DNA of 64,000 bases, from the NCBI GenBank assembly GCA_950295325.1, contig OX485807.1, positions 46,426,796 through 46,490,795 of the forward strand. The letters run 5' to 3'. The stretch is from Polytrichum commune (Eukaryota; Streptophyta; Polytrichopsida; Polytrichales; Polytrichaceae). Below, in pieces: positions 60,800 through 64,000 of this stretch. Every line of letters begins with the position of its first letter. The stretch's first letter is position 1. Position numbers and translations under genes: made by a program. Under the pieces are notes generated by a model. That model did not search any database and was not told where the DNA came from. It saw only the letters and a program-made list of their open reading frames with translations.

Positions 60800-60883
60800 T
60801 TAGTCTCACATGGGCTCCCACCCAAACAAACAGGAATCACCATACCCGCTATACCTAACATTTTTACCACAACCAAATTTACA

Positions 60884-63800
60884 ATGATAATATATCTAAA
60901 AATACATATGAAAAATCCCATAACACTTCATTCCTACGGTTACTACTTCATTGACAAACTTGAATTGCTAAAAGGCGGAGACATCAAGCCCAACCCAGGA
61001 CCAATGCCTAACATCCTCCACACACATCCTACAACACACAAAAGAAGAGCAAACACTTACTTCATTCCAAACACCATAAAACTACAACCTGAATACCAAC
61101 ACATCGCAAATACATTTGCCCCCATTCTACAAAACACACACCCACTACACCCCCAAGCAATAACAACTTACCCGCATTTACACCAATATACACAAACACA
61201 AAGCCAATCACCACCCACACATATGCTCTATGCTCTCATCATCACCATCCACCCCTCAATAGACACATGCAATAACATACTAGCCCAACCTCAACATTAC
61301 CATTTTAACAACATTTGGACTAACACTTTGATTATCAGACTAGCTAACCTCAACAATCCACCTGAAAGGCACATATTGACACCTCACCCCTACACCACAT
61401 TCGTGGAAAATAATCAAGATATAATACACCCAAAAAATTCAATAAACACAGAATTATATGAATTCATACATAACCGAGATGTTACACCTACATTAGCCAC
61501 CCTTCAAAATAAATTTCCCTTCCTCCCAAGTCAATTGCTCAAGGAAGCACTCCGATGCCTAGAAAACATCAATGAATACTCACACCCACCACCACCATTA
61601 GATATTCCCGCACCAATTCCAAGAACCAACACCGACATCGAACACGAAACCAACATCATCACATGGAATGCGTCGTCACTCAACACATCATTGCCAAACC
61701 TACAAAATCTAATCAACAATTCACTAAATAACACAGCAATCATACATATTCAAGAAACCAAACTAACTGCAAACAAATCCACAAAATACATACAAAACTT
61801 ATTTCCAGAATTTAAACTCACTTTTAACAACACACATGCTCTTACAAGATGCATACAACAAAGAATGCCTTATACCCCCGGTAGAGGAGGCTTACTTACA
61901 CTCATCCACAATAAATATGCATTCCCTGGAAATATCACCAAAATTCCCACGCCAGCAAATATCTCTCCATATCTACAAATAATCAAAATAAATAACCACC
62001 CACTAACACCCTGGATAATCATACACATGTATATGCCTACACACTTAGAAGACACGTGTCTTATCCCACACCTTAAGAACGAAATCACTAACGAAATCAC
62101 TATCCATCCCAATCACATATATACATTATGTGGTGACTTTAACCGAGACATCGCACTTACGGGCAGACAAAATAACAACATTAACACCCTTCCACAAGAA
62201 GAAGACTATCAATGGAAAAATTTCACCGCATCACTCAACCTGGAATATATCCCAACTAACACTACTTTCTCTAGACAAAGAGGCTATAATTATACATCAA
62301 CAAGTCTAATAGATGGATTCTACATCCACTCGCCAGACAACAGCAAATTCATCTCTACTACTAACACCAACATGAATCTAAACTCAGACCACTACCCAAT
62401 TGTCCTACATATCCCCCATAACACCCTTATAGCCAGACCCCCGCCTCCCACAAACACGCCACCTACTAGAATCCTAAATCCAATCCCACCAGAAAACATC
62501 GAAAAATTCAACATAATATTCTTCGAAGAAAATTTCACACAAATCAAGACACTTACCACACTACTAGAATCCCACCAACACTTAAGTCCAGATCTATGGG
62601 CGGAAACTTGCACAATATTTGACCACATTGTACATAAAATCTCAGAAACAATTGAAAAAACTTGTAAAGCAGACCCACTACCCAATCTTACGAATAGAAC
62701 AACCCAACAAGGTGGATTTTTGCCACGAAAACTAGCCAGAAAATGGAAACAACACCTAAACACATATCACCTCATCCGGAAAACCATATACATTGCACAA
62801 CACGACCCACTTTGGCAAGCGCACCCCATCCTCAACGACATACGTAACCACCAAAATACAAACATCCCACTTCCACCCGTTACAATGATACCTCCTACCG
62901 AATGGATTGAAACCATTGCAACCATCGCCAAAAATGCAAATAAAGCAGCCAGAAAAATTACCACAAAATATACCAAAAATTGTATTCTAAAAGCCGTATC
63001 AAAATATCGTCAAATGTATGAAAAAACCCCCAAAAAGATAAATCGTAAAATCTTCAAGAATACTGAAACCTCACCACTTGACTTCATCATGGATAGGCAA
63101 AATAACATCCTAACTAACCCAGAAAATATCGCATCAGAAATTTACATGCAACAATCCATTAGTAACCGCCCTACAGTCCCCACATGTCACTATAACAATA
63201 ACCACCCACTACACTGCACATGTGGAGTCCGGCAATACCCATGGCACGATTTAGACGGATACACAATCGACAGACGAGGCGAACCCCAAACCCCCTTACA
63301 CACGTACTTTGACCAACAAACATACGACCTCTGCCTTAAAAATCTAAGTAATAACAAAGCCCCCGGCCCAGACAAAATACCCAATTCCATTCTAAAAAAC
63401 ATGCCGCCACGCTTTCACAAATTACTCTTTCTATTCTTTAAACAATGTTATAAACAAAAACAAATCCCCGCATCGTGGAAAACTAGTCTCACAGTTTTAC
63501 TATACAAAAAAGGTGACCCGTCACAACTAACAAATCACAGGCCTATTGCACTAGCTAACACCATATATAAATTCTACACGAGTACACTAACATCTATCCT
63601 ATCAGCATATGGAGAAAAACATCAAATCCTACACGATAGTCAAGAAGGGTTTAGAGCTGAGAGAAGCACTTCTAGACAAATTCAATTATTAATCGCAGCG
63701 CTTGAAGACGCACGATTCACGAACCAAGATATATACATTCTCTATATTGACTTCAAAAATGCCTTTGGCTCTATTGATCACGCCAGACTCTTAGCAATCA

Positions 63801-64000
63801 TGAAGGATCTAGGCTATCCTACTGACTCCATAAACCTCATAGGAAACATATATTCACAATCATCAACCATATTCATTGGAGAACACTTCGGCAAAACCCT
63901 ACCAATCCCCATACAAAGAGGCACAATACAGGGCGACACACTAAGCCCGTACCTCTTTATCATATTCCTTGAACCCCTCCTTCGATGGCTCCAACAAGGA
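60884..64000 (+). CDS. LINE polyprotein: 2A-like, endonuclease, RT (partial 3')
   Basis: At least 1039 codons without interruption from the first in-frame ATG (60884). A second ATG lies at 60908. Residues 31-40 are GGDIKPNPGP. Residues 41-255 form an Asn/Thr/Pro/His-rich region with no recognised domain. The endonuclease spans about 256-510 with TWNASSL, the metal-binding Glu in IHIQETKL (about 290), IIIHMYMPTH, LCGDFNRD (about 416), TSLIDGFYI and LNSDHYPIVL (about 500). A linker of about 300 residues follows. RT begins near 815: NKAPGPDKIPNSIL, LYKKGDPSQLTNHRPIALAN, QEGFRAERST, LYIDFKNAFGSIDH (catalytic Asp of motif A) and RGTIQGDTLSPYLFIIFLEP. All catalytic residues that fall inside the window are intact. 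No zinc knuckle precedes the endonuclease. Confidence 0.92.
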   Translation, partial: MIIYLKIHMKNPITLHSYGYYFIDKLELLKGGDIKPNPGPMPNILHTHPTTHKRRANTYFIPNTIKLQPEYQHIANTFAPILQNTHPLHPQAITTYPHLHQYTQTQSQSPPTHMLYALIITIHPSIDTCNNILAQPQHYHFNNIWTNTLIIRLANLNNPPERHILTPHPYTTFVENNQDIIHPKNSINTELYEFIHNRDVTPTLATLQNKFPFLPSQLLKEALRCLENINEYSHPPPPLDIPAPIPRTNTDIEHETNIITWNASSLNTSLPNLQNLINNSLNNTAIIHIQETKLTANKSTKYIQNLFPEFKLTFNNTHALTRCIQQRMPYTPGRGGLLTLIHNKYAFPGNITKIPTPANISPYLQIIKINNHPLTPWIIIHMYMPTHLEDTCLIPHLKNEITNEITIHPNHIYTLCGDFNRDIALTGRQNNNINTLPQEEDYQWKNFTASLNLEYIPTNTTFSRQRGYNYTSTSLIDGFYIHSPDNSKFISTTNTNMNLNSDHYPIVLHIPHNTLIARPPPPTNTPPTRILNPIPPENIEKFNIIFFEENFTQIKTLTTLLESHQHLSPDLWAETCTIFDHIVHKISETIEKTCKADPLPNLTNRTTQQGGFLPRKLARKWKQHLNTYHLIRKTIYIAQHDPLWQAHPILNDIRNHQNTNIPLPPVTMIPPTEWIETIATIAKNANKAARKITTKYTKNCILKAVSKYRQMYEKTPKKINRKIFKNTETSPLDFIMDRQNNILTNPENIASEIYMQQSISNRPTVPTCHYNNNHPLHCTCGVRQYPWHDLDGYTIDRRGEPQTPLHTYFDQQTYDLCLKNLSNNKAPGPDKIPNSILKNMPPRFHKLLFLFFKQCYKQKQIPASWKTSLTVLLYKKGDPSQLTNHRPIALANTIYKFYTSTLTSILSAYGEKHQILHDSQEGFRAERSTSRQIQLLIAALEDARFTNQDIYILYIDFKNAFGSIDHARLLAIMKDLGYPTDSINLIGNIYSQSSTIFIGEHFGKTLPIPIQRGTIQGDTLSPYLFIIFLEPLLRWLQQG
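60974..61003 (+). other. 2A-like ribosome-skipping motif in the LINE
   Basis: GGDIKPNPGP closely resembles the 2A consensus D(V/I)ExNPGP, with Lys where Glu is usual and the invariant NPGP intact. It sits at residues 31-40, preceded by the hydrophobic stretch YGYYFIDKLELL, as in 2A-like motifs at the N terminus of some animal and trypanosome non-LTR elements. If active, it would release a 39-residue leader. Confidence 0.65.

Follow-up and report, generated by a model that had tools for sequence, protein, structure and literature searches.

A conserved 2A-like motif in the reading frame of APE-type LINEs of the moss Polytrichum commune

The window, that is, the whole 64,000-nucleotide stretch of DNA analysed here (C5:46426796-46490795), comes from a 407.8-Mb assembly of 64 contigs, 406.1 Mb of which lie in seven contigs of 42-78 Mb. 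The assembly holds four matches to LEAFY (PF01698) above cut-off, with none in 14 control genomes, and one LEAFY DNA-binding exon was closest to PDB entry 4bhk (109.8 bits; 85.1 for 2vy1). The former is a Physcomitrella protein and the latter an Arabidopsis one; the LEAFY genes point to a land plant, most likely a moss. On its plus strand, the window carries a 5'-truncated LINE copy of subfamily A that begins at 60816 and runs off the window at 64000. Its borders are those of an APE-type LINE, with a (CTAT)n tail beyond the window and a 12-bp target-site duplication whose 5' copy (TCTCACATGGGC) lies at 60804-60815 (+) and whose 3' copy lies past the window end. A single frame at 60884-64000 (+), with candidate starts at ATG 60884 and ATG 60908, contains a 2A-like motif, an APE endonuclease region and the start of a reverse transcriptase (RT). 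The APE region (61631-62440, +; N, QETKL, GDFN and SDH motifs) was placed by comparison with L022:1980-2789, and the RT (63509-63997, +; cut by the window end) by its Pfam profile, RVT_1, at E 2.2e-19. A Pfam scan of the whole window ORF returned no APE family at E 0.1. At E up to 1, the APE regions of copies L029, L022, L039 and L051 matched both PF03372 and PF14529 in 4/4 cases, with best E values of 1.6e-9 and 4.9e-9, respectively; APE and RT share one frame, as in APE-type LINEs, with L029 alone under both curated APE cut-offs. The window gave no Rfam matches.

Over about 7 kb, the window copy is 99.3-99.7% identical to copies L021-L024, 96.8% to L025 and 87.9% to L029, a member of subfamily B; the older L039 is 82.5% identical to it over 4.6 kb. 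The RT is closest in the PDB to R2 proteins, and other copies encode an RNase H past what the window covers. Between RT and RNase H, at about residues 1586-1682 of the downstream protein in L029 and L022, we observed a PCIF1_WW Pfam match that is unexpected for a LINE (E 3.1e-10 and 1.2e-10, respectively). The C-terminal 341 residues of the same two copies show, by eye, CCHC and RPD...E...K motifs, which suggests a second, restriction-like endonuclease as in Dualen; a profile search of this part for such an enzyme returned no match.

The 2A-like motif lies at 60974-61003, where GGC GGA GAC ATC AAG CCC AAC CCA GGA CCA encodes GGDIKPNPGP in frame with the ORF from ATG 60884, which continues past the window end. 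Codons and open frame thus confirm the sequence-only reading, which had reported this peptide at these positions in a LINE frame. The core octapeptide DIKPNPGP (p12-p19) occupies 60980-61003 (+) and follows the hexapeptide ELLKGG (p6-p11; 60962-60979, +), which is of the L-rich class (as described in the available part of PMC12846837). The predicted skip point falls between Gly 60998-61000 and Pro 61001-61003, and an ATG directly after the core (61004-61006, +) offers an alternative start for the downstream protein. NPGP and D at p12, both required of StopGo/2A sequences, are present. The core consensus (D/G/C/N)(V/I)ExNPGP is not matched by the window copy, which has K at p14; it is matched by 13/13 fetched copies of the sister subfamily B, among them L038, with G at p12. 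The known upstream class, L-rich and ending in (A/S/C)G, recurs across the leader groups of these elements; the window copy departs from it at p10, where it has G instead of A, S or C.

Genome-wide, D[IVM][EK]xNPGP had 295 matches against 0 for the reversed pattern. Leaving p14 free gave 460 sites (reversed control, 5), with E in 273, Q or H in 156, K in 22 and another residue in 9, which amounts to 451/460 with E, Q, H or K and 178/460 with Q, H or K; the copies are related, so these counts are not independent, and the duplicated contig C24 is counted more than once. When N16 was freed with E at p14, sites rose from 273 to 334 (control, 8), and many of the extra sites among those listed read DVELVPGP, probably another repeat, or DIEPHPGP; freeing P17 gave 318 sites (control, 3). 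DIEPHPGP, with H at p16, was seen at C1:38517980, C1:51347369, C1:54958453, C2:38391824 and other places, and an H at p16 is reported to be active in viruses (PMC12846837, in part). The exact motif was present in 36/40 family copies that reach it, in a set that came from protein-similarity matches on C1 and on the part of C2 below 55.9 Mb and was thus not ascertained by the motif; two of the four misses read DIEPHPGP (C2:21066002) and DIELNRGP (C1:6089495). Lineage II showed lower retention, 28/44 with E, K, Q or H at p14, or 29/45 counting one further match. Conservation of NPGP in other copies, the check that the sequence-only reading had proposed, is therefore found.

At p14, all 13 fetched subfamily B copies have E and all six fetched subfamily A copies have K. 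K is therefore most simply derived, and the E-to-K difference remarked on from the window alone is sound as a sequence change. K also occurs at 16 sites outside subfamily A, including three DVKPNPGP sites that differ only synonymously, and the DVKPNPGP site at C7:30670506 adjoins a protein match with an open frame of 1,339 residues. Another of the three, L055, was considered as a K member of lineage II with an intact frame and rejected, its frame stopping 35 codons past the motif. As a separate observation, p14 and p10 appear to covary: where p10 is G (61 sites, with GG before the core), p14 is E in 10/61 and another residue in 51/61, against 263/399 and 136/399 elsewhere, kinship among copies being ignored.

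The sequence ahead of the core is likewise patterned. Across 28 leader groups the hexapeptide is roughly [LI][IL]L[LKQ][CSGH]G, with G at p11 in 25/28 and C, S, G and H at p10 in 12, 7, 5 and 4 groups, respectively; it lies outside the patterns used to choose the loci, and the region filter dropped 0/46 candidates. For viral sequences, this L-rich class has been described as going together with D at p12 and as being needed for activity (PMC12846837, in part). Directly after the core (p20), 12/28 leader groups have M, including those of the window family, and the remaining 16 have L, P or I.

In longer copies, the reading frame upstream of the motif stays open well beyond the candidate starts of the window copy. 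ATG 60908 is present in 19/19 compared copies and ATG 60884 in only the 6/19 that belong to subfamily A, and we therefore rejected the latter as the family start. In L022, the 1,299 nt upstream of the motif hold no stop in frame, against 28 and 26 in the other two frames and about 20 expected under a Markov model; the high counts in the other frames over the same stretch led us to reject base composition alone as the cause. L029 has no stop in 828 nt (21 and 20 in the other frames). The open frame upstream of the motif thus spans from about 278 codons (L029) to at least 433 (L022), and the first upstream stop lies at 834 nt in 7/12 subfamily B copies and between 213 and 843 nt in the rest. A 101-residue leader ending in NPGP found 150 scored matches that were 56-100% identical, 14 of them with an internal stop. 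Because of the stop-free frames and the leader matches, the region upstream of the motif is probably translated, with the motif internal in the longer copies. In the window the motif seems N-terminal because this copy is truncated at 60816. The sequence-only reading, which had placed the motif at the N terminus of a frame beginning with about 30 residues, thus describes the window copy and not the family; its wider interpretation, a conserved 2A-like motif behind an L-rich hexapeptide in an APE-type plant LINE, stands apart from that position.

Substitutions between the subfamilies indicate where this frame is constrained as protein. For L023 versus L029, dN/dS was 0.14 over the 30 codons that precede the motif, 0.06 over the motif's 8 codons (4 differences) and 0.10 over the 52 that follow; for L025 versus L029, the same segments gave 0.11, 0.12 and 0.07. 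At codons -110 to -30, these two A-B pairs gave 0.60-0.70, and the highest upstream value, 1.37, came from one pair with L039. The excess of third-position differences between A and B starts at about codon -40 and is absent farther upstream. The signal was weaker in comparisons with L039, an older copy with NLGP in its motif, at 0.40 and 0.29 before the motif and 0.14 and 0.41 within it. It is possible, then, that the true N terminus lies near the motif, at codon -24, or that the motif is N-terminal on a short transcript. The onset of strong constraint close to that codon agrees with this view, and the truncated copies L020 and L021, whose first bases are at most about 10 nt apart, might show where a transcript begins; the lack of upstream stops and the leader matches speak against an end at codon -24.

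Two further observations concern the 5' part of these copies. Beyond about 350 nt before the motif, L025 is unlike L022, yet it has no stop over 1,230 nt (17 and 12 in the other frames); a swap of the 5' module is possible. The window copy (from 60816) and L021 (from about 157-160 nt before the motif) are independent insertions whose 5' truncation points differ by no more than about 10 nt; both have a target-site duplication of their own, that of L021 being 13 bp and read by eye. Such near-coincident ends could reflect a transcript start or a preferred stopping point.

Several lineage II copies carry more than one motif. L042 and L050 have four motifs in one shared frame, which is broken farther down, and L052 has three in one frame that stays open for 532 codons. 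Two motifs each are present in L053 and L056, with one in-frame stop at the far 5' end and 18 and 21 (L053) or 21 and 20 (L056) stops in the other frames. L054 has two motifs and a stop 45 nt before the first, and the two motifs of L051 are out of frame with each other. Clusters within 1.5 kb were in frame in 14/16 cases on C1 and the part of C2 below 55.9 Mb, and in 8/13 on C3 and part of C4, where only the Q/H list was used; 5/7 of the out-of-frame clusters are one or two bases away from an in-frame spacing seen elsewhere. The repeated unit includes the leader together with the first stretch of the ORF2-like part (an N-domain portion).

Many viruses use this motif so that the ribosome releases one protein and starts the next. 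We favour the reading that the moss motifs are working natural StopGo/2A sites that part the upstream region from the enzyme, and give it a probability of roughly 0.65 on sequence evidence. The E members are probably functional, and the K subfamily of the window is a separate question. On this proposal, the nascent peptide [LI][IL]L-x-[CSGH]-G-DI-[E/Q/H/K]-x-NPG would stall the ribosome, the peptide would be released after the Gly, and translation would pick up at the Pro to yield a separate APE-RT-RNase H protein. Full-length copies would thereby part the ORF2-like enzyme from an upstream region that is low in complexity, evolves fast and resembles ORF1 only in its position; on a short transcript, the part shed would be a leader of 24-32 residues. 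That skipping happens, how strong it is and what the products do are what we infer here: E members would skip well, and the K subfamily may skip weakly.

The closest competitor overlaps with this proposal and concerns only the subfamily of the window copy. It holds that the E-type members are true StopGo sites and that the K subfamily has lost skipping, its protein being made as a fusion or from ATG 61004. K is the derived state and is absent from the enriched viral variants in the available part of PMC12846837, and an E14Q change retained 56% or 26% activity in earlier work cited there. Against a loss, H at p14 is more than 95% active in natural contexts (same source, in part), K recurs at the 16 sites outside subfamily A, and subfamily A, being young, with copies 99.3-99.7% identical, moved with K in place. 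We rate this alternative a little below even odds. We think it unlikely that the motif seldom or never gives two proteins and is conserved instead because it belongs to a folded domain or acts through the nascent chain in some other way, for example by pausing translation or stopping it under regulation. In favour of this view, termination of translation apparently occurs with some natural 2A sequences (PMC11512398, in part), and Q, H and K are common at p14 here; on the other hand, NPGP in an L-rich context is what is known to mark skipping, and activity of StopGo in plants is reported (both PMC12846837, in part). Still less credible is a start of enzyme translation at the ATG right after the motif, with the preceding part a short upstream peptide or untranslated: the 12 leader groups with M at p20, the window family included, would allow it, and the other 16, the protein-level constraint on the 30 codons before the motif and the far-reaching open frame speak against it. 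A chance match in a Pro- and Asn-rich frame, conceivable since an octapeptide is short, is practically ruled out by the 295 matches against 0 for the reversed pattern and the 36/40 copies that retain the motif.

If the motifs are working StopGo sites, as we favour, the tandem copies invite a bolder and more doubtful extension. Moss LINEs might run a serial StopGo programme in which between one and four 2A sites divide a single long frame, with strength set by p14 (E strong; Q, H and K weaker) and p10, releasing an ORF1-like leader, N-domain copies and an ORF2-like enzyme in graded amounts; if true, this would be the first natural case of its kind in land plants. More broadly, the 451 D[IVM][E/Q/H/K]xNPGP sites in one plant genome form a large natural variant set, in which the effect of p14 can be tested directly on members with E, Q, H and K, and from which 2A peptides of plant origin may be obtained. 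Should the sites work, ribosome skipping in one frame, and not separate ORFs, would determine in what ratio these LINEs make their products.

Sequences resembling 2A are said to occur in APE-type LINEs of animals (work by Odon in 2013) and, reportedly, in L1Tc of Trypanosoma cruzi (Heras in 2006), and the title of a 2025 work by Rao announces a survey of 2A sequences from eukaryotes and viruses. The moss elements share with those LINEs a 2A-like motif in frame with an APE-RT polyprotein and differ, as far as secondary references tell, in their land-plant host and in having tandem motifs in one frame. A literature search that did not include the works of Odon and Rao found no 2A-like LINE motif in land plants. 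According to PMC12846837, StopGo is active in plants and rare in cells, and its authors came across no plant virus that uses it. RNA-virus StopGo sequences of the L-rich class (same source, in part) resemble the E members in the D-I-[E]-x-NPGP core, and most leader groups in the L-rich hexapeptide that ends in G with C or S before it; unlike them, the moss motifs belong to a plant LINE, are known from sequence alone, and have K at p14 in the window subfamily and Q or H in many others. Dualen/RandI LINEs (PMC4640811 and PMC3636483, each in part) likewise combine APE, RT and RNase H, and have a counterpart to the CCHC and RPD...E...K motifs seen here by eye, whereas our profile search had no match to a second endonuclease. 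In sea urchin NLR proteins with an N-terminal 2A-like sequence (PMC4981915, in part), a large protein is preceded by a short leader that has NPGP at its end, much as in the truncated window copy, whereas in the longer moss copies the motif is internal. Picornaviruses with several 2A sequences (PMC11512398, in part) offer the nearest parallel to the tandem copies, with several NPGP per polyprotein spaced by tens to about 150 residues or more; here, by contrast, the motifs belong to a LINE, and each repeat also takes in the beginning of the ORF2-like part.
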